A DNA stretch of 23,169 nucleotides from a virus: the IMG/VR virus record IMGVR_UViG_3300030012_003270, positions 1 through 23,169 of that record; one strand, given 5' to 3'. Numbering within the stretch: position 1 is the stretch's first letter; each line of letters starts with the position of its first letter. Made by a program: the position numbers and the translations under genes. The notes beneath the pieces were generated by a model, which was not told the DNA's origin, ran no database searches, and saw only the letters and a list, made by a program, of their open reading frames with translations. This document shows, piece after piece, positions 5,904 to 14,281 of the stretch.

Positions 5904-6122
5904 ATGGCTAATGTTGGAATAAAGAACAAAGAAAGAGCCGAAGTTCCATTTGTGAACATAGCTGTTCCAGTGGAAGATCGTGAAAAACTAAGAAATATTG
6001 CTCATGAAGAAGGTAGGACGATGGCTCGACAAGTGTCCAGAATGATTCGAGAAGAATATGAAAAAAGATTTGGGATGAAAGAAGAGCAATTAGATAGCAT
6101 CAGAAAGATGGAGGGCAGCTAA
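5904..6122 (+). CDS. Ribbon-helix-helix (Arc-type) DNA-binding protein
   Basis: A 72-residue protein with the expected order of an Arc/MetJ-type repressor: a short strand (about 14-22, V-P-F-V-N-I-A-V-P-V), helix 1 (E-D-R-E-K-L-R-N-I-A-H-E-E-G) and helix 2 (T-M-A-R-Q-V-S-R-M-I-R-E-E-Y-E-K-R-F). Such proteins dimerise and bind short palindromes through the paired strands. AAAGGAG at 5890-5896 is a strong ribosome site. As the only clear small DNA-binding regulator seen besides TerS, it is the best candidate to bind the control region at 1068-1252, but that link is inference. Its stop codon overlaps that of the convergent SNF2 gene. Confidence 0.75.
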   Translation: MANVGIKNKERAEVPFVNIAVPVEDREKLRNIAHEEGRTMARQVSRMIREEYEKRFGMKEEQLDSIRKMEGS

Positions 6123-6136
6123 GCCTTTTTTGGCTT
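6119..6136. other. Hairpin at the convergent RHH/SNF2 stop codons
   Basis: TAAGCC (6120-6125) and GGCTTA (6132-6137) form a six-pair stem around a loop of six Ts. The stop of the plus-strand gene (TAA, 6120-6122) and of the minus-strand gene (TAG, 6121-6119) both lie in the stem. No T-run follows on either strand, so it is not a standard terminator; it may mark or protect transcript ends. Confidence 0.45.
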
Positions 6137-7600
6137 AATCTGGAGCCACTCTTTGGCCTCCTCGCCCAAGACCTTTGCACTAAGGTCAATCTTATTAACT
6201 AAGGAATGCACGATTTTTTCATCAATCGTGCCTTCCGAAATCAAATCAATATACGTTACCGATTTATTTTGCCCGATTCTATGGCACCGATCTTCTGATT
6301 GGATTCGAGTATCGAGGTTAAAGTCATTAGCATAGTAGACCACAGTGTGCCCTTCCGTTAACGTAAGGCCCCGACCCGCAGTGGAGGGATTACCAATGAA
6401 AAACCGAAGATCAGAGTTTGGATCTTGAAACCGGTCAACAATCTCACTGCGCTGATCATCTTTTGTGTCTCCGAAATACTTTGCTACTTTATGCTCACCG
6501 AAATGGTCGGACAAAACTTGAGCTATCTTCATAATGTCATATCGAAAACGTGACCACACAATGATCTTTCCCGAAGTCTCGTAACAAATGTCGAGTAAAG
6601 CGTCGATTCGTTTAGTGTCAAAGTTTTCTTGATATCCATCGTCCGTGGTCAAGTATCCTGAAAGTATTTGCTGCAGCCGGAGCATCTGCGTCACCATCTG
6701 TGGGGCCGAAACAAGCCGTCCGTCCTCGAACAACACCAATGCTTCCTTTCGAATCTGTTCGTACAATTCAAGTTGTCTTTTAGTTAGGCTGACATAACGG
6801 GGCATATATACTTTACTTGGTAGATCCAAACAATCTTTCTTCAAGACCCGAAAACTAAAATCATCGAGCTTTTTGTTTAGTTCGTCTAAATTTTTGAACC
6901 CGACAACTTGTCTAAAACTTGTGGAACCCATGTTCCTAGTTTGTAAATTAGCGTATCGAGCTTGAAAGGCATAGAAGTTACTGTAGCCTAGCACACCTTT
7001 TTTCAAAAATTCTGTTTGTGAATATACATCCATAGGTGAGTTTGTGACAGGCGACCCTGTAAGTATGCGCGAATATTCAAAATCTTTGGAGAGTTGCACA
7101 AGTGCCTTGGTTCGATTCGACTTACTATTCTTAATCGTAGTGCTTTCGTCCACAGCAACTATGCCCCGACTCCCGAATCGCTTAGCTAACCAGGTGCCGA
7201 CATTGCGTCCTTTGACTGTAGAAAAGATCTCGACATTCATAACAAAGATTGTAATCCCTTCAAAAGCATCCCTTACCGACTTGATCTCCCGCTCTTGTTC
7301 TTTGTTTGGATTGCTAACCCAACGAATCACCCGATGACTCACGTCATCAGGGAGGTGCTGCGGGATCTCTCGCTCCACCCAGTTACGATACACTCCCTTG
7401 GGAGCAATGATCAAGGCAAAATCTATCTCTCCTCGACCATATAGATGCACAATATTATCTATGAGAACCTTTGATTTACCTGTACCCATCTCCATAAATA
7501 GTGCAAAATATTTCTTATCGTGGGAGGCATCCAAAGCATCGATCTGATGTTTAAATGGCTTAGTCTTAAAATAATATTTGACAAGCTGTTTGTTTTCCAT
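6119..7600 (-). CDS. SNF2-family DNA helicase/translocase
   Basis: A 493-residue superfamily 2 ATPase, compact as in phages. Motif I is M-E-M-G-T-G-K-S-K (36-44), motif Ia includes I-I-A-P-K-G-V (64-70), motif II D-E-S-T (151-154), motif III T-G-S-P (181-184), and motif VI Q-S-E-D-R-C-H-R-I-G-Q (434-444) with the typical I-D-E-K-I following. SNF2 proteins translocate on duplex DNA and remodel or displace bound proteins; phage members are thought to aid replication or recombination. It is the only minus-strand gene inside the plus-strand block, with its own promoter (7607-7635). The ATG at 7600 has no Shine-Dalgarno sequence and should lie at the transcript's first base. The end converges with the RHH gene over four bases. 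Confidence 0.92.
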   Translation of the reverse strand: MENKQLVKYYFKTKPFKHQIDALDASHDKKYFALFMEMGTGKSKVLIDNIVHLYGRGEIDFALIIAPKGVYRNWVEREIPQHLPDDVSHRVIRWVSNPNKEQEREIKSVRDAFEGITIFVMNVEIFSTVKGRNVGTWLAKRFGSRGIVAVDESTTIKNSKSNRTKALVQLSKDFEYSRILTGSPVTNSPMDVYSQTEFLKKGVLGYSNFYAFQARYANLQTRNMGSTSFRQVVGFKNLDELNKKLDDFSFRVLKKDCLDLPSKVYMPRYVSLTKRQLELYEQIRKEALVLFEDGRLVSAPQMVTQMLRLQQILSGYLTTDDGYQENFDTKRIDALLDICYETSGKIIVWSRFRYDIMKIAQVLSDHFGEHKVAKYFGDTKDDQRSEIVDRFQDPNSDLRFFIGNPSTAGRGLTLTEGHTVVYYANDFNLDTRIQSEDRCHRIGQNKSVTYIDLISEGTIDEKIVHSLVNKIDLSAKVLGEEAKEWLQIKPKKA

Positions 7601-7659: not shown

Positions 7660-8220
7660 ATGAATGACATTTACGACGATATGTTTGATGAAAGTGCAGC
7701 ACTGGAGTCAATCAACCCTGAGACAACAAAATATCTCAGCGGATTAGTAAAACAGTTACGAGTTACTGAGCAACAAATTGAGGATGCGGAGACGCATCTC
7801 AAGAGTCTTAAACAAGACAAAAAGAAACTATCCACACAATTGATTCCCGATCTGATGGATGAAATGGGCGTGGAACGTGTGGACGTTGACGGACTAACTG
7901 TTACGAAAAAACAGATAGTGGCAGCATCCATACCCGTTGATAAACGTGAACTAGCCTTTGATTGGTTGCGAGAGAGAGGACTCGACGACATTATTAAGAA
8001 TGATGTTGTCGTTACTTTTGGCCGTGGTCAAGACAATCTTGCCAAAGACGCTTTTTGGACACTGAAAGATAAAGGCTTAGACCCATCAACAAAAACGCAC
8101 ATACATCCGATGACTTTAAAAGCGTTCTTGAAGGATCGTATGGAAAATGGGCAGGAAGTAGATCTCGATCTATTTGGTGCCTTTTTAAGCAACGTAGTAG
8201 AAATTAAGAGGAAATCATGA
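7660..8220 (+). CDS. Conserved phage coiled-coil protein of the replication module (186 aa)
   Basis: A preferred AGAGGAG precedes the ATG. Residues about 27-62 form a likely coiled coil (K-Q-L-R-V-T-E-Q-Q-I-E-D-A-E then L-K-Q-D-K-K-K-L). The second half includes A-F-D-W-L-R-E-R-G-L-D-D-I-I-K-N, a V-V-V-T-F-G-R-G segment, and H-P-M-T-L-K-A-F-L-K-D-R followed by D-L-D-L-F-G. I recognise this arrangement from phage proteins found beside ssDNA-binding candidates, possibly the DUF7173 group, but its function is not known to me. It starts the second rightward run and overlaps the next gene as ATGA. Confidence 0.7.
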   Translation: MNDIYDDMFDESAALESINPETTKYLSGLVKQLRVTEQQIEDAETHLKSLKQDKKKLSTQLIPDLMDEMGVERVDVDGLTVTKKQIVAASIPVDKRELAFDWLRERGLDDIIKNDVVVTFGRGQDNLAKDAFWTLKDKGLDPSTKTHIHPMTLKAFLKDRMENGQEVDLDLFGAFLSNVVEIKRKS

Positions 8221-8990
8221 ATAAAGAGATAGTAACAAAAAAAGATCAACTTCCGGCAGACTTGTTGGATGAGATCACAGCATCTGCAGGTGAGGGGACA
8301 ACCTTTGATAGTTCCGAAATGCAGATACCATTTATCCGGATAATACAGGCATTATCCCCACAAGTTAATAAGAAAGACCCTGCGTTTATTGATGGAGCAG
8401 ATCAGGGAGATGCTTTCAATACTGTTACAAGTGAGTTTTGGACCGGTGAGGAAGGACTTTTAGTAATTCCTTGCTATCAAGAGACAAAGTTTCTTGAGTT
8501 TGTTCCAAGAGAATCTGGGGGAGGATTTATGGGCGAACTAGAGCCTAATAATCCCGATATCCAAAACACCGAGAGAAAAGGTGCAAAGGAGATTTTACCA
8601 AACGGAAACGAATTGGTAAAATCTGATCAGCATTATTGTCTCGTTGTTGGGGATAGTGGCATGGTACAGCCTGCTATCGTCGATATGAAATCTTCACAAC
8701 TAAAGGTTAGCCGACGTTGGAAGACACAGATTGCGATGCAGAAGATACGGCACCCTAAAACGGACGCACTACTAACTCCTGCGGTCTATGCGACTATGTG
8801 GCGGTTGAACACTCTTCAAGAGAGTAACGACCAAGGCACATGGTACAATTGGTCTGTAACGAAACATGGCTTGGTGCAAACTAAGGAAATACTTAGTGAG
8901 GCAAAGCTCTTCAGAGAGCAAGTCATGAAGGGTGCGGTTAAGGCTGTTGATGAAACGGAACCGCTAGAAAAAGACGAAGTTCCTTTTTAA
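8217..8990 (+). CDS. Candidate ssDNA-binding protein with an SSB-like C-terminal tip
   Basis: A 257-residue protein translated from an ATGA overlap with AAGAGGAAA upstream. The core (about 30-225) is mixed alpha/beta with strand-rich segments (for example G-L-L-V-I-P-C-Y-Q-E-T-K-F-L-E-F-V-P-R), followed by a short acidic tail ending E-K-D-E-V-P-F. Bacterial SSB proteins end in an acidic tip of the form D-D-D-I-P-F that docks replication and repair enzymes, and phage gp2.5-type proteins also use acidic tails. The tip and the position just before the primase suggest an ssDNA-binding or replication-hub role. I cannot see an OB fold directly, so the assignment is moderate. Confidence 0.55.
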   Translation: MNKEIVTKKDQLPADLLDEITASAGEGTTFDSSEMQIPFIRIIQALSPQVNKKDPAFIDGADQGDAFNTVTSEFWTGEEGLLVIPCYQETKFLEFVPRESGGGFMGELEPNNPDIQNTERKGAKEILPNGNELVKSDQHYCLVVGDSGMVQPAIVDMKSSQLKVSRRWKTQIAMQKIRHPKTDALLTPAVYATMWRLNTLQESNDQGTWYNWSVTKHGLVQTKEILSEAKLFREQVMKGAVKAVDETEPLEKDEVPF

Positions 8991-9009
8991 CTGCTAGTTA
9001 ACAGCCTTT

Positions 9010-9055
9010 GGTGGGGCACAGTTTCCGACACTGTCTTCCTTTGCTGTGTCCCACC
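9010..9055 (+). promoter_or_regulatory. Long hairpin with an alternative inner fold before the primase gene
   Basis: GGTGGGGCACAG (9010-9021) pairs with CTGTGTCCCACC (9044-9055), 12 pairs including one G-U, with a 22-base loop. A competing inner hairpin pairs ACAGT (9018-9022) with ACTGT (9030-9034), and the two cannot form fully at the same time. The sequence after the stem is TTATTTG, not a clean T-run. It fills the 76-base gap between the SSB-like and primase genes; the primase ATG, 12 bases later, has no Shine-Dalgarno sequence. Terminator, attenuator or translational switch are all possible. Confidence 0.5.
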
Positions 9056-9066
9056 TTATTTGAATC

Positions 9067-10593
9067 ATGTCATTAGTAATTAAATTTATGAACGCTTTTC
9101 GTGGCTCTGAAGAGGCACACGGACAAACGACAGTAGGTGCGGTGGGTCGAAATGGAAAGACCGAAGCCAATAGTCGCGTGGTCCGTGAGCCATTGACGGA
9201 GGAACTAGTAGAGAACCATCTCGAAGGAAAGCACGGAGTTGGGGCGATCCCGATCACCAAGGAGAACGAGTGTTACTTCGGGGCGATTGACATTGATCAG
9301 TACGACCTCGACCACAAAGGACTCATAGCAAAGATAGTAAAATTTAAACTGCCGTTGGTCGTATGTCGATCAAAGTCGGGTGGAGCGCATTTGTTTTGTT
9401 TCCTTAAACAACCAACACAAGCAAAGATATTTAGAGAATACTTAACAGAGATTGCCGGTGCGCTTGGTTACGCACGAGCCGAAATATTTCCAAAACAAGA
9501 TAGTATCTTGTCTGAGAGGGGAGATGTGGGGAACTTTATTAATTTACCCTACTTCAAAGCACAACAAACAATGCGGTATGCCTTTGATGACAAAGGTAAA
9601 GCTATGAGCCTTGAAAAGTTTCTTGATGTTGTCGAGAAGAAACGAACTCTTGTCGCTAACCTTGAAAACATAAACTACGGAGAAAGCCGTGAAGTGTTTT
9701 CTGACGGGCCACCGTGCTTACAGAACTATGTTTCAGTGGGCAAGGTCGATAATAACAGAAACATCTTTTTATCTCAGTGTGCCCCATATTGTAAGGCAAA
9801 GTATTCCGATAATTGGAAGAACTCTCTTGAGGAGATAAACCAAAGGCACTGCGCCCCACCACTTCCTGCAAGTGAGCTAGTGACCTTACAGAATCAGTAC
9901 CAAAAGAAAGATTACTTTTATCAGTGTAATATTGAACCGAACTCATCCTTCTGTAATAAAGAAGTATGTAAATCCCGAAAGTATGGGATAGGTAACAAGT
10001 CTGACCATGCAGCAGAACTCAGTGGACTCACGATAATGCTGTCTGATCCCAAGCTTGTCTTTCTCGATGTGAACGGTGGCAGACTAGAGATAACAATGGA
10101 TCACTTACAAAACCAACACTTGTTTCAGAAAGCGTGTATGGAGCAGTTGATGTTTATGCCGTCAAAGATAAAGGAAGCAGATTGGGTGACAAAGGTAAAC
10201 GAGATGTTGAAACATGCAGTTCAACTAGAGGTGCCAAGGGAACTTACAGTGGATGGACAGTTCTATGATCTTCTTGAAACCTTTTGCACAAGCCGTATTC
10301 GTGCTCAATCCTCTGAGGAACTGTTCATGGGTAAGCCGTGGACAGAGGATGGCAAGACAATGTTTATGATCAATGGACTTATGGAGTTCCTACGGCAGAG
10401 AAACTTTGCGTCTTTTACACGAGCGCAGATACAAGAACGATTGAAGAAACTAAACAATAATCAAGAATGTAACGGACATAAGAACCTTCGTAAACCCGAC
10501 GGTGGCAGAACAACCTTGCGTGTATGGTGGGTGCCTGCCTTTGAAGGTGTCGAGGAGCAAGTAGAGGTAGCAGAGAATGACATCCCGTTCTGA
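9067..10593 (+). CDS. Archaeo-eukaryotic-type DNA primase with a cysteine-rich region
   Basis: A 508-residue primase-polymerase of the AEP superfamily, closest in look to TOTE-type and phage bifunctional primases. The metal-binding pair is Asp75 and Asp77 (G-A-I-D-I-D), the nucleotide motif is S-K-S-G-G-A-H-L with His108, and G-N-F-I-N-L-P-Y-F (155-163) is the third conserved region. Seven cysteines follow (217, 238, 242, 262, 287, 296, 301), resembling the iron-sulfur region of the PriL large subunit. The C-terminal third is helical, probably a winged-helix-like module, and ends in an SSB-like N-D-I-P-F. It would prime phage replication with the UvrD-like helicase and polymerase encoded downstream. 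No ribosome site precedes the ATG; a second ATG is at 9088. Confidence 0.85.
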   Translation: MSLVIKFMNAFRGSEEAHGQTTVGAVGRNGKTEANSRVVREPLTEELVENHLEGKHGVGAIPITKENECYFGAIDIDQYDLDHKGLIAKIVKFKLPLVVCRSKSGGAHLFCFLKQPTQAKIFREYLTEIAGALGYARAEIFPKQDSILSERGDVGNFINLPYFKAQQTMRYAFDDKGKAMSLEKFLDVVEKKRTLVANLENINYGESREVFSDGPPCLQNYVSVGKVDNNRNIFLSQCAPYCKAKYSDNWKNSLEEINQRHCAPPLPASELVTLQNQYQKKDYFYQCNIEPNSSFCNKEVCKSRKYGIGNKSDHAAELSGLTIMLSDPKLVFLDVNGGRLEITMDHLQNQHLFQKACMEQLMFMPSKIKEADWVTKVNEMLKHAVQLEVPRELTVDGQFYDLLETFCTSRIRAQSSEELFMGKPWTEDGKTMFMINGLMEFLRQRNFASFTRAQIQERLKKLNNNQECNGHKNLRKPDGGRTTLRVWWVPAFEGVEEQVEVAENDIPF

Positions 10594-12103
10594 GTTAATA
10601 TTAGGTCCTCCAGGATGCGGTAAGACACATACTCTCATTGAGATCGTCAGAGAGGCTCTCTCACGGGGCGTGGCTCTTGATAGGATAGGTTATGTATCTT
10701 TTACTAAGAAGGCTGTTAATGAGGCCGTAGAGAGGGCAGGATCAGCATTTAATCTTACACCCGACGACTTACCTTACTTTCGTACCCTTCACTCGCTTGG
10801 GTATCACGGTCTTGGCATGTCTCAATCCGACATGATGTCCCGTGAAGATTGGAAGGAGTTCTCTCGAATGATGGGCATGAACTTCGATGGAATCATATCG
10901 TCTGATGCTGATGATGGATTGATATTACCTCAAGGCAGAGATAACGATAGATACCTACGCATGATTGATCGTGCTGCTCTTCGCTGTGTGTCCTTGAAGA
11001 AAGAATTTAATGATCAAAGAAGTTATGATCTTCACTACTTTATGCTTGAGAAAATTGACAAAGCGTTGAAGGAATATAAGTCGGACACGGGCAAGCTATC
11101 GTTTACGGACATGATTTCTAACTTCGTTGAGCAATGTTCGGCTCCCAAGCTAGAGATACTTATAGTGGATGAAGCACAAGACCTCGTGCCCTTACAATGG
11201 AAGATGGTGGACAAGCTCACAAGAAACTCAGAAAAAACATACTTTGCCGGAGATGATGATCAAGCGATTCATAGATGGGCCGGTGTGGACGTAGATTTAT
11301 TTATGAGATGCTCAGATAATGTTCGCGTTCTTGACCAAAGTTATCGATTGCCTAAGTCAGCCTATAACATGGCGATGCAAATCGTGCGTCGTATACGGCA
11401 CAGAAAGCAAAAAGAGTTTAAGTGTATGGACAGAACCGGCACGATAGCACATCATCTTGATACCTTTGACATAGACATGAGCCAAGGTTCGTGGACATTG
11501 ATGTCTCGAACCAACTCGTTTGCTCGTGATGTTGCAGCAGACTTACGGGATCAAGGGTTGTTCTACGAAATCAAAGGCTATCCAAGCGTAAAGCTAGAGA
11601 TAGCAGAGGCCATAAAGATATGGGAGGGACTACAGAAGGGGCGTGAGATAGGACTTCATGAGGTCAAAAGATTATATGGACTTGCACCGAAGACGGGGGA
11701 TGGAGCTGTGGTCAAGCGAGGAATCATGCCCTTATTGGATGCAGAGCCTCTTGATGGAACCTATACTTATGAGTCTTTGGTTCAGAACCTAGGTTTATTG
11801 GCACAAAAAGAAACAGATGCGTTAGATATGCTCCGGTTGGGTAAGGACGAGCGGTATTATATCCGTGCGTTACTACGACGGAATGAAGTTCTTACCGAAA
11901 GACCAAGGTTGAAGGTTTCCACGTTTCATGCAATGAAAGGTGGCGAGGACGACAATGTGGTGGTTCATTTGGACTCGACAAAGTCGTGCGTAACAAATCC
12001 CGATCAAGACGACGAGCATCGTGTGTTCTATGTCGGGTTAACAAGAGTGAAGAATAATCTTCATATAATAGAGTCGCAGAAAAAATATAGGTATGATATA
12101 TAA
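10577..12103 (+). CDS. UvrD/Rep-like superfamily 1 DNA helicase
   Basis: A 508-residue SF1A helicase. Motif I is G-P-P-G-C-G-K-T-H-T (10-19), Ia includes F-T-K-K-A (42-46), motif II D-E-A-Q-D (198-202), motif III G-D-D-D-Q-A-I-H-R-W-A-G (225-236), motif IV Q-S-Y-R-L-P (254-259), motif V T-F-H-A-M-K-G-G-E (449-457) and motif VI Y-V-G-L-T-R (485-490). It is shorter than cellular UvrD (about 720), lacking large 1B/2B insertions. It would unwind DNA 3' to 5' for replication or repair. The start lies 17 bases inside the primase end, a coupled pair, and the stop overlaps the next start as TAATG. Confidence 0.92.
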   Translation: MTSRSELILGPPGCGKTHTLIEIVREALSRGVALDRIGYVSFTKKAVNEAVERAGSAFNLTPDDLPYFRTLHSLGYHGLGMSQSDMMSREDWKEFSRMMGMNFDGIISSDADDGLILPQGRDNDRYLRMIDRAALRCVSLKKEFNDQRSYDLHYFMLEKIDKALKEYKSDTGKLSFTDMISNFVEQCSAPKLEILIVDEAQDLVPLQWKMVDKLTRNSEKTYFAGDDDQAIHRWAGVDVDLFMRCSDNVRVLDQSYRLPKSAYNMAMQIVRRIRHRKQKEFKCMDRTGTIAHHLDTFDIDMSQGSWTLMSRTNSFARDVAADLRDQGLFYEIKGYPSVKLEIAEAIKIWEGLQKGREIGLHEVKRLYGLAPKTGDGAVVKRGIMPLLDAEPLDGTYTYESLVQNLGLLAQKETDALDMLRLGKDERYYIRALLRRNEVLTERPRLKVSTFHAMKGGEDDNVVVHLDSTKSCVTNPDQDDEHRVFYVGLTRVKNNLHIIESQKKYRYDI

Positions 12104-12390
12104 TGGTAAAAAGAAAAGAAGTATTAGAGCAGGCAGGCAACTTAATATCTAGCAAAAGAGCCAAGATATATGGGGATGCCAAATTAAATCACGAGCGGAT
12201 CGCACAGTTCTGGTCAGTCATATTGGAGCAGAAGATTACTGTTGAGCAAGTGTATCAGTGTATGATCGCTGTAAAGATGTCGAGGTTGATCAACTCACCT
12301 AAACATTTAGATTCGTGGGTCGATATCGTTGGTTACGCAGCTCTTGCAGGAGAAGATGACGAGTGGAACGAAGACGATGGCGAAAGATAG
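12103..12390 (+). CDS. DUF6378-like phage protein (95 aa)
   Basis: A small helical protein with R-A-K-I-Y-G-D-A near residue 19, a H-E-R-I-A-Q-F-W segment, V-E-Q-V-Y-Q-C-M-I-A-V-K-M-S-R-L and D-S-W-V-D-I-V-G-Y-A-A-L-A. This order (Y-G-D, the I-A-x-x-W helix, K-x-x-R, D-S-x-V-D-x-x-G-Y) matches the DUF6378 family, common in phages and often close to replication genes; its biochemical role is unknown. It begins in a TAATG overlap with the helicase and lacks a strong ribosome site, so coupling is likely. Its end overlaps the polymerase gene by 14 bases if the polymerase starts at 12377. Confidence 0.75.
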   Translation: MVKRKEVLEQAGNLISSKRAKIYGDAKLNHERIAQFWSVILEQKITVEQVYQCMIAVKMSRLINSPKHLDSWVDIVGYAALAGEDDEWNEDDGER

Positions 12391-14281
12391 AAAAGATAAT
12401 AGCACTATAAGTTTTGAGGAACGAATGATGATGGATGTTCTTGACGTTGACTGGAACATACCTCCAGAGTTTCCGGATCTCAGACATTGTAGTCAGATAG
12501 CCGTGGACTTAGAAACGAGAGATCCAAGTATACGGGACTTAGGACCTGGTTGGGCAAGAAAAGAGGGTGAGATCATAGGTATCGCTGTTGCTACAGGCGA
12601 TTATAAGGGTTATTTCCCTATACGACATGCCAATGGTCATAACTTAGACGCTGATATGACGTTAAATTGGCTCAAAGAACAGATGAATACTCCACATATC
12701 GACAAGATTATGCATAACGCAACATATGATGCCGGATGGTTGCGAACTGAGGGCATAGAGGTAAAGGGCAGAATTATTGATACAATGGTCGCTGCTCCGT
12801 TGATTGATGAGAATAGATTTAGTTACAGCCTAAACAATCTTGGTCGAGACTATATCGATATGCGTAAAGACGAGAAGATGTTGAGAGCTGCAGCAAAAGA
12901 TTTTGGAATAGATCCCAAGAGCGAGATGTGGCGATTACCTCCGAAGTTTGTAGGACCTTATGCTGAACAAGATGCTCTTATGACCCTCAAGCTATGGGAA
13001 AGACTATCGATAGAGATTAGTCGAGAAGAACTAAACGAGGTGTTTAATTTAGAATCTAAACTTATACCGATTATGCTCGATATGCGAGAGCGTGGAGTGC
13101 GGGTAGACTTAGACAAGGCAGAACAAGCCAAGAAAACCCTCAAAGCTCGTGTTTCTGAGCTAAAGAAGTTCATCAAACAGAAAACATCAGTAAACATAGA
13201 GCCGTGGGCAAACGCCTCTGTAGAGAGCGTTTTTAAGGCACTGAACCTAACATATCCAACCACAGAATTAGGGGCACCTTCGTTTACGAAACAATTTTTG
13301 CAAGCACACCCTCATGAGGTTGCCCAGGCTATCGTAAAATTACGCGAGGCTGACAAAGCCGACAGCACATTTATTGATAGTATTCTTAGACATGAACATA
13401 AAGGTCGTATACATTGTGAGTTTCACCAGTTGAGATCCGATGATGGGGGGACTGTCACGGGTAGGTTCTCGTCGTCGAATCCAAATCTACAACAGATACC
13501 TGCCCGTGATCCCGAAATCAAAAAGCTAATCCGTGGCTTGTTTATACCCGAAGAAGGGCAGAAGTGGGGTAGCTTTGACTATTCTTCACAAGAGCCAAGG
13601 TTACTGGTGCATTATTGTTCGGTGCTACGTCGAGGAGATAGGCATCCTATGATTGATGAAGTGATTGACGAGTACCACAAAGGGGACGCTGACTTTCATC
13701 AAATGGTGGCAGATATGGCAGGCATCTCACGAAAAGAAGCAAAGACCGTCAACTTAGGCATTATGTATGGTATGGGCGTAGGTAAGTTGGCTACACAGCT
13801 TGTGCTATCCACAGAAGAGGCAAAAGCATTGATGGCGAAATATCATCAGCGTGTGCCGTTTGTGAAGACACTAGCCGAGCGTGTGACGCAAAGAGCATCA
13901 AAGAACGGAAAGATTCGAACTATATTAGGACGTTTGTGCCGATTTGACCTATGGGAACCTAAGACTTTTGGATATAGCAAGCCTATGAAACACGAAGATG
14001 CGGAACGAGAGTACGGGCCTATGATCCGTCGAGCGTTTACCTACAAGGCATTGAACCGATTGATCCAAGGTTCGGCAGCCGATCAAACAAAGAAAGCGAT
14101 GGTAGATTGCTATGAAGAGGGTCTTGTGCCGTTGATTACAGTACATGACGAACTTTGCTTCTCTGTCGAGAGCGACGTGCAAGCACAGAAGATCAAGAAT
14201 ATTATGGAGACGGGATTGGAGTTAGCCGTGCCGAGTAAGGTTGACCAGGATATTCAAGCTAACTGGGGGGACGTGGACTAA
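12377..14281 (+). CDS. DNA polymerase I (family A) with 3'-5' exonuclease
   Basis: A 634-residue replicative polymerase. Exonuclease motifs: Exo I V-D-L-E-T (Asp44, Glu46), Exo II N-A-T-Y-D (Asp118), Exo III Y-A-E-Q-D (Tyr195, Asp199), so proofreading is intact. Polymerase motif A is D-Y-S-S-Q-E-P-R (Asp401, Glu406), motif B R-K-E-A-K-T-V-N-L-G-I-M-Y-G (Arg452, Lys456, Leu460, Tyr464), motif C V-H-D-E (His590, Asp591, Glu592). There is no 5'-3' exonuclease domain. Leu460 takes the place of E. coli Phe762. The start is uncertain: ATGs at 12356, 12377 and 12425/12428 are in frame, the last with TGAGGA upstream; all keep the domains. The 3' end converges with the last virion gene, overlapping by 23 bases. 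Confidence 0.95.
   Translation: MAKDRKDNSTISFEERMMMDVLDVDWNIPPEFPDLRHCSQIAVDLETRDPSIRDLGPGWARKEGEIIGIAVATGDYKGYFPIRHANGHNLDADMTLNWLKEQMNTPHIDKIMHNATYDAGWLRTEGIEVKGRIIDTMVAAPLIDENRFSYSLNNLGRDYIDMRKDEKMLRAAAKDFGIDPKSEMWRLPPKFVGPYAEQDALMTLKLWERLSIEISREELNEVFNLESKLIPIMLDMRERGVRVDLDKAEQAKKTLKARVSELKKFIKQKTSVNIEPWANASVESVFKALNLTYPTTELGAPSFTKQFLQAHPHEVAQAIVKLREADKADSTFIDSILRHEHKGRIHCEFHQLRSDDGGTVTGRFSSSNPNLQQIPARDPEIKKLIRGLFIPEEGQKWGSFDYSSQEPRLLVHYCSVLRRGDRHPMIDEVIDEYHKGDADFHQMVADMAGISRKEAKTVNLGIMYGMGVGKLATQLVLSTEEAKALMAKYHQRVPFVKTLAERVTQRASKNGKIRTILGRLCRFDLWEPKTFGYSKPMKHEDAEREYGPMIRRAFTYKALNRLIQGSAADQTKKAMVDCYEEGLVPLITVHDELCFSVESDVQAQKIKNIMETGLELAVPSKVDQDIQANWGDVD

Follow-up and report, generated by a model that had tools for sequence, protein, structure and literature searches.

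The terminal phenylalanine of gp2.5, the single-strand DNA-binding protein (SSB) of phage T7, is essential. A similar ending is present on the T7 primase gp4: the ends that we examined were GDF for gp2.5 and TDF for gp4, and DDDF and STDF for the corresponding pair of P-SSP7. Contacts between gp2.5 and the replication machinery are mediated by its tail and depend on it; the tail also competes with single-stranded DNA (ssDNA) for the gp2.5 cleft (PMC2965674). Basic patches of the polymerase gp5 bind the acidic tails of gp4 (PMC12593628). In phage HK620, the SSB ends in NDYPPF and docks the phage annealase Sak4, and this binding requires the last six SSB residues (PMC5928155).

Here we analyze a phage locus in which a putative SSB-like protein and a primase carry the same kind of tip, and we ask what the two tips might bind. 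A literature search, in which subscription journals were scarcely covered, found no prior report of matched tips on gp34-type proteins and primases.

Results

Two adjacent proteins of a marine phage end in SSB-type tips

The window, that is, the whole stretch of DNA that was analyzed, is a virus contig record of 23,169 bases whose source is described as marine phage. It carries, in this order, genes for a gp33-like protein (7660..8220, plus strand; profile matches to DUF7307, Pam3 gp33), a gp34-like protein of 257 residues (8217..8990, plus strand), a primase of 508 residues (9067..10593, plus strand), a UvrD-like SF1 helicase identified by a profile match (10577..12103, plus strand), a DUF6378 protein, and a family A DNA polymerase with a 3'-5' exonuclease (12374..14281, plus strand; PF00476, E 5e-62). 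An SNF2-type helicase, also a member of the conserved neighborhood, is encoded at 6119..7600 on the minus strand, opposite to the gp33-gp34-primase row. This neighborhood was found again in distant phages, where gp33 is a constant upstream neighbor of gp34 and the UvrD-like helicase is a neighbor in nearly all relatives.

An earlier note on this DNA had pointed out SSB-like tips on two neighboring proteins, and this observation holds. gp34 ends in ETEPLEKDEVPF (KDEVPF, with the tip D-E-V-P-F at 8973..8987) and the primase ends in VEVAENDIPF (tip N-D-I-P-F at 10576..10590), each directly before its stop codon. Both proteins have the acidic-hydrophobic-P-F arrangement of the bacterial SSB C-terminus (SSB-Ct) at their extreme C-termini; none of the other predicted genes of the window has such an ending. 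Within positions 10576-10593, the codons of the primase tip also hold the UvrD start codon at 10577, and the first UvrD residues, MTSRS, are read from them in another frame.

By profile, gp34 belongs to Pfam PF23977 (Pam3_Gp34; 220.6 bits against a cut-off of 27, residues 9-242, E 3e-65) and to phrog_2402 (E 3e-63), a common phage family with 499 phage records. Neither family has an assigned function. The bacterial SSB family PF00436 had no match anywhere in the window record; the only Pfam match of gp34 is PF23977. An AlphaFold2 model of gp34 built on 36 homologues has a mean core pLDDT of 85, with values of >90 over most of the core. The strand order of the model is β-β-β-helix-β-β, which equals OB topology, and this predicted OB-fold-like core (residues about 30-240, within 8217..8990) is followed by a helix and then, from residue 241, by a tail predicted to be disordered (residues 241-257, 8937..8987; pLDDT about 47-50) that shows little conservation except at the tip. 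Foldseek comparison of the model with the PDB gave no match at E ≤ 0.001, with several SSB and RPA chains among the listed matches; comparison with the BFVD viral models returned members of the family and, as weaker matches, proteins with SSB as their name. A sequence search of the PDB with the gp34 profile gave no match. The OB assignment is therefore suggestive only. gp34 is likely an SSB-like protein that would coat ssDNA. Since some phages encode gp34 plus a true SSB, gp34 need not be the sole SSB of a phage and may instead have an SSB-like accessory role. In Podoviridae sp. ct3Et533, the gp34 gene is unannotated, and a hypothetical protein is annotated over the same region on the opposite strand.

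The primase matches PF22548 (AEP-TOTE) over the catalytic domain with 71.7 bits against a cut-off of 27, and it belongs to phrog_21866 as well (E 8.6e-82). In its predicted model, a two-stranded element is followed at the C-terminus by a tail of low confidence that starts near residue 491 (residues 491-508, 10537..10590); this tail is predicted to be flexible, with pLDDT dropping to 66 and then 58 in its final blocks.

The tips are conserved behind variable linkers

Are these endings kept in relatives? In homologues of both proteins, the tip stays conserved, whereas the linker before it varies and is predicted to be disordered, as judged from pLDDT and column entropies. This is the flexible linker of an SSB-Ct and the outcome that the earlier note had looked for. 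A PF end was present in 98/145 gp34 proteins and 95/144 primases of the first homologue sets, which came from related viral contigs. Among members ending in PF or PY, the proline is invariant and the last residue nearly so; upstream of them, most positions differ widely.

We then compared these endings with those of other proteins. The strict motif [DE]x?[IVLA]PF occurs in 101/301 gp34 proteins and 73/317 primases of related loci, and in the same loci it is absent from the UvrD-like helicase (0/299), the family A polymerase PolA (0/170), and gp33 (0/211). The background set consisted of 4,791 other distinct open reading frames (ORFs) from these loci, all closed and at least 90 amino acids long; six of them end in PF, and two carry the strict motif. 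Both of the latter come from a phage SSB family, phrog_18154, and provide a positive control. With 2/4,791 in the background, a chance origin of the tips was rejected.

Could the primase tip be conserved because the UvrD gene starts within it? The overlap (ATG at 10577) was rejected as the cause of conservation, because the UvrD frame opens only after the primase stop codon in 61 of the 90 tip-bearing homologues counted. For the tip proline, all four codons are in use among homologues, which indicates selection on the protein.

The tips of gp34 and the primase are matched within genomes

To the first homologue sets were added four more scans and named phages, giving 346 loci that carry both genes and fall into 51 clusters; a scan of viral contigs with the JeffCo primase yielded 3 relatives only. 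Read from their sequences, the tips of gp34 and the primase are matched within genomes, and class switches occur together. The window clade has the pair IPF/IPF (gp34/primase throughout), and IPF/SPF is another pairing. The HTVC027P clade has QDIV/ENIV, and across 50 kb of HTVC027P, gp34 and the primase are the only two ORFs with a [DEN]IV end. Further pairs belong to an EL/DL class (TEL/PDL and PEL/PDL) and an EF class (SEF/AEF). In the pair IPFA/PPFV, both proteins have PF plus one extra residue; here the gp34 gene is that of ct3Et533 (L155, 10990-11901, plus strand). PY/PY pairs came from a scan of bacterial assemblies that was kept out of forming the idea: QPY/APY (L423), APY/DPY (L432), TPY/EPY (L436), MPY/EPY (L438), and APY/TPY (L454). 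One clade has lost the gp34 tail, and in its primase extra residues follow the motif; judging from the annotation of related records, this clade appears to be mostly freshwater-sampled.

The match extends to a primase of a second architecture. In the four Mesyanzhinovviridae that we examined, which are Pseudomonas/Bordetella-type phages, the primase beside gp34 consists of a RepB_primase domain (RepB-AEP) and an SF3-type helicase (phrog_1829, assigned for the Ab18 protein; the FP1 protein was identified by position and tail similarity). The tips are KPVF/KPPF in FP1, Aergia, and Bhz59 and KKAPF/KKDPF in Ab18. Two Mesyanzhinovviridae proteins annotated as "integrase" (L470, 11894-14269; L476, 8177-10603) are primases of this type. 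A relative of the RepB-type primase in RDJL1 ends in PDDL, and a search of 32 kb of RDJL1 gave no gp34.

In several lineages the match is broken. In the HTVC023P clade and in Nanhaivirus, gp34 retains its tip and the primase has none; the pairs VPY/DAF (L443), TPF/EVY (L430), and PDEM/DTEE (VP2) do not match, and Hera is a further exception. The tip-less primases of the HTVC023P clade (L157, L332-L411) share a conserved internal stretch, EMDD[ED][FY]HTGKFRT, near the C-terminus. In the Nanhaivirus Dinoroseobacter phage R26L, whose primase is tip-less, an unrelated hypothetical protein (phrog_8203; L472, 10026-11105, minus strand) ends in DDEVPF, which equals the gp34 tip; its N-terminus looks GHKL ATPase-like by eye. 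Achromobacter phage JWT has a related primase and PolA and no annotated gp34; its annotated gp2.5-like SSB (L481, 34971-35588, minus strand) has the tip GDFE, unlike the primase end.

Quantification of tip similarity by permutation over 62 clusters gave z values of 6.3-7.4 for the gp34 and primase tips, and seven control pairs of other C-termini reached at most 2.2 in the same permutation. In 24 held-out clusters, the association had p=5e-5. With one genome per deep clade (12 clades), tips were more similar than in shuffled pairs (p ≤ 7.5e-4). In a stricter test, tips were swapped between path-disjoint relatives on a tree of the gp34 and primase cores. For the last residue, sister contrasts gave 7.5 matched versus 0.3 swapped (median p 0.016), a phylogeny-controlled signal that comes from only about 8 informative contrasts. 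A sign-flip test on the last 1-4 residues gave p of about 0.01; its filter against tail-less rows also removed a few tip-bearing rows without acidic residues, and the unfiltered result was similar. By sign test the last 2-4 residues were not significant, and many contrasts tied or went the wrong way. In independent-pair tests of binary traits, Y never went in the opposite direction, with pairs too few for significance. Fine I/V and D/E differences do not co-vary between the two tips; the signal is thus a coupling of tip class, in few independent events.

Discussion

What might read the two tips? The reading that we favor, and rate slightly better than an even bet, is that one component of the phage's own replisome, most likely the family A DNA polymerase, offers the tips of gp34 and the primase a shared binding pocket. 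The SSB-like gp34 and the primase would carry a common C-terminal docking tag on their flexible tails, and both tags would dock in one pocket of one component. Competition or hand-off at this pocket could couple priming, ssDNA coating, and primer extension, in the fashion of T7 gp2.5 and gp4 on gp5. The polymerase is favored as the hub because it is present in every phage with an AEP-TOTE primase among the 15 named records searched, and by analogy with T7 gp5; the UvrD-like helicase, or the SNF2-type one, would be the next candidate reader. PolA, UvrD, and gp33 accompany tip-bearing and tip-less genomes alike. Counting against PolA as the hub, Myosmarvirus and Wifcevirus records lack it and encode DnaE, and their gp34 still ends in AEQF or AEEF. 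The lineages with a broken match, the lack of a PDB match for gp34 at E ≤ 0.001, and the occurrence of gp34 beside a true SSB also weigh against the shared-pocket reading.

The earlier note had proposed that both tips use the SSB-docking network of the host or else bind a shared phage partner. The phage partner is now the better-supported option, since the two tips co-vary; the host network does not serve as a general explanation and may still apply to the IPF clade, which includes the window. Under host mimicry, both tips would copy the host SSB tip and dock on RecO, PriA, Exo I, chi, RecQ, and DnaG. Indeed, the window-clade tips DEVPF and NDIPF are essentially the bacterial consensus, and SSBs of related marine bacteria end in DDDIPF or DDEIPF. 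Elsewhere, however, both phage tips move to PY, IV, EL, or EF together and host SSBs stay at D(D/E)IPF. In three SAR11 and two alphaproteobacterial assemblies that hold PY-tipped phage contigs, the SSBs end in D(D/E)IPF or DEDIPF, a comparison that is safer for single-cell contigs than for metagenome-assembled bacterial contigs, which may be misbinned. One host strain is shared by HTVC023P and HTVC027P, whose gp34 tips differ (VPF versus DIV). Klebsiella and Acinetobacter phages whose own SSB ends in DDDIPF or DDDLPF have other tips on gp34 and the primase (EDM/SEF and DEY/SEF). Tip switches with an unchanged host SSB, different tips in phages of a shared host, and different tips on the phage SSB and gp34 mean that host-SSB pockets alone are insufficient. 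With PY/PY on the phage proteins and D(D/E)IPF on SSBs of the same assemblies, mimicry was rejected as the general cause, and we hold it to be improbable as an account of both tips. The small phage SSBs with DDDIPF or DDDLPF ends (L159, 19108-19443; L160, 19938-20261) are missed by PF00436 and match phrog_18154; gp34 is encoded alongside.

The main rival among phage-internal readings places the pocket on gp34 itself. The tail of gp34 would fold over the face with which the same protein binds ssDNA; the primase tip, as a copy of this tail, would dock the primase on gp34 and hence on coated ssDNA. One precedent is the T7 gp2.5 tail, a competitor of ssDNA for the cleft of that protein (PMC2965674); another is the packing of Enc34 ORF6 and T7 gp2.5 tails on neighboring molecules in crystals (PMC5686142). 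Docking on gp34 would also account for the gp34 match in primases of two architectures and for the clade in which both tips are lost. We nevertheless consider it unlikely: in the gp34 model the protein's own tail is disordered, and its ssDNA binding is only putative. It would be still more surprising if the two tips had unrelated partners and resembled each other only through common descent and a general tendency of proteins to converge on acidic-aromatic ends. Inheritance of tips within clades and the lack of co-variation in fine-scale I/V and D/E changes speak for that explanation, but class switches (F/Y, IV, EL, and PF plus one residue) coincide, and the held-out data and control pairs argue against it.

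Many double-stranded DNA phages may have a private, evolvable docking code in their replisomes, a broader proposal that we regard as a toss-up. A gp34-type protein and whichever primase is present would share a tag that is read by a co-evolving phage hub, and tag classes (PF, PY, DIV, EL, EF, and KPxF) would drift independently of the host SSB tip. The finding suggests that phages have repeatedly taken the SSB-type tip, regarded as a host hub, into private use, so that exchanging tips between classes becomes a simple experiment. It also gives a testable role, as an SSB-like part of the replisome, to the common gp34/phrog_2402 family, and matched tips offer a clue to physical coupling within phage replisomes that can be read from genomes alone.

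How does this locus compare with described systems? Like bacterial SSB-Ct (DDDIPF), the tips lie at the extreme C-terminus of a disordered tail, with acidic residues followed by I/V-P-F. In contrast to bacterial SSBs, gp34 and the primase are not members of PF00436, and both tips evolve away from the host consensus together. HK620 also encodes an SSB-type tip, and there it binds a phage-encoded partner; the HK620 report describes the tip on the SSB only, with no matching primase tip. Pam3 gp34 is the namesake of the family to which window gp34 belongs by profile (PF23977/phrog_2402), a family without an assigned function. T7 differs in that its primase is of the TOPRIM-DnaB type and not an AEP; no homology to gp2.5 or gp4 was found, gp34 having no detectable sequence homology to solved structures, and the tip here is usually hydrophobic-P-F and changes class between lineages. 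The earlier note had called an SSB-type tip on a primase unusual, and it is, although T7 provides a known analogue in gp4 (TDF) with the SSB gp2.5 (GDF). As in T7, an SSB-like protein and a primase have the same tip, both in the window and in their co-variation, and in both systems a phage with a family A polymerase has its SSB or SSB-like protein and its primase share a short acidic-aromatic tip.
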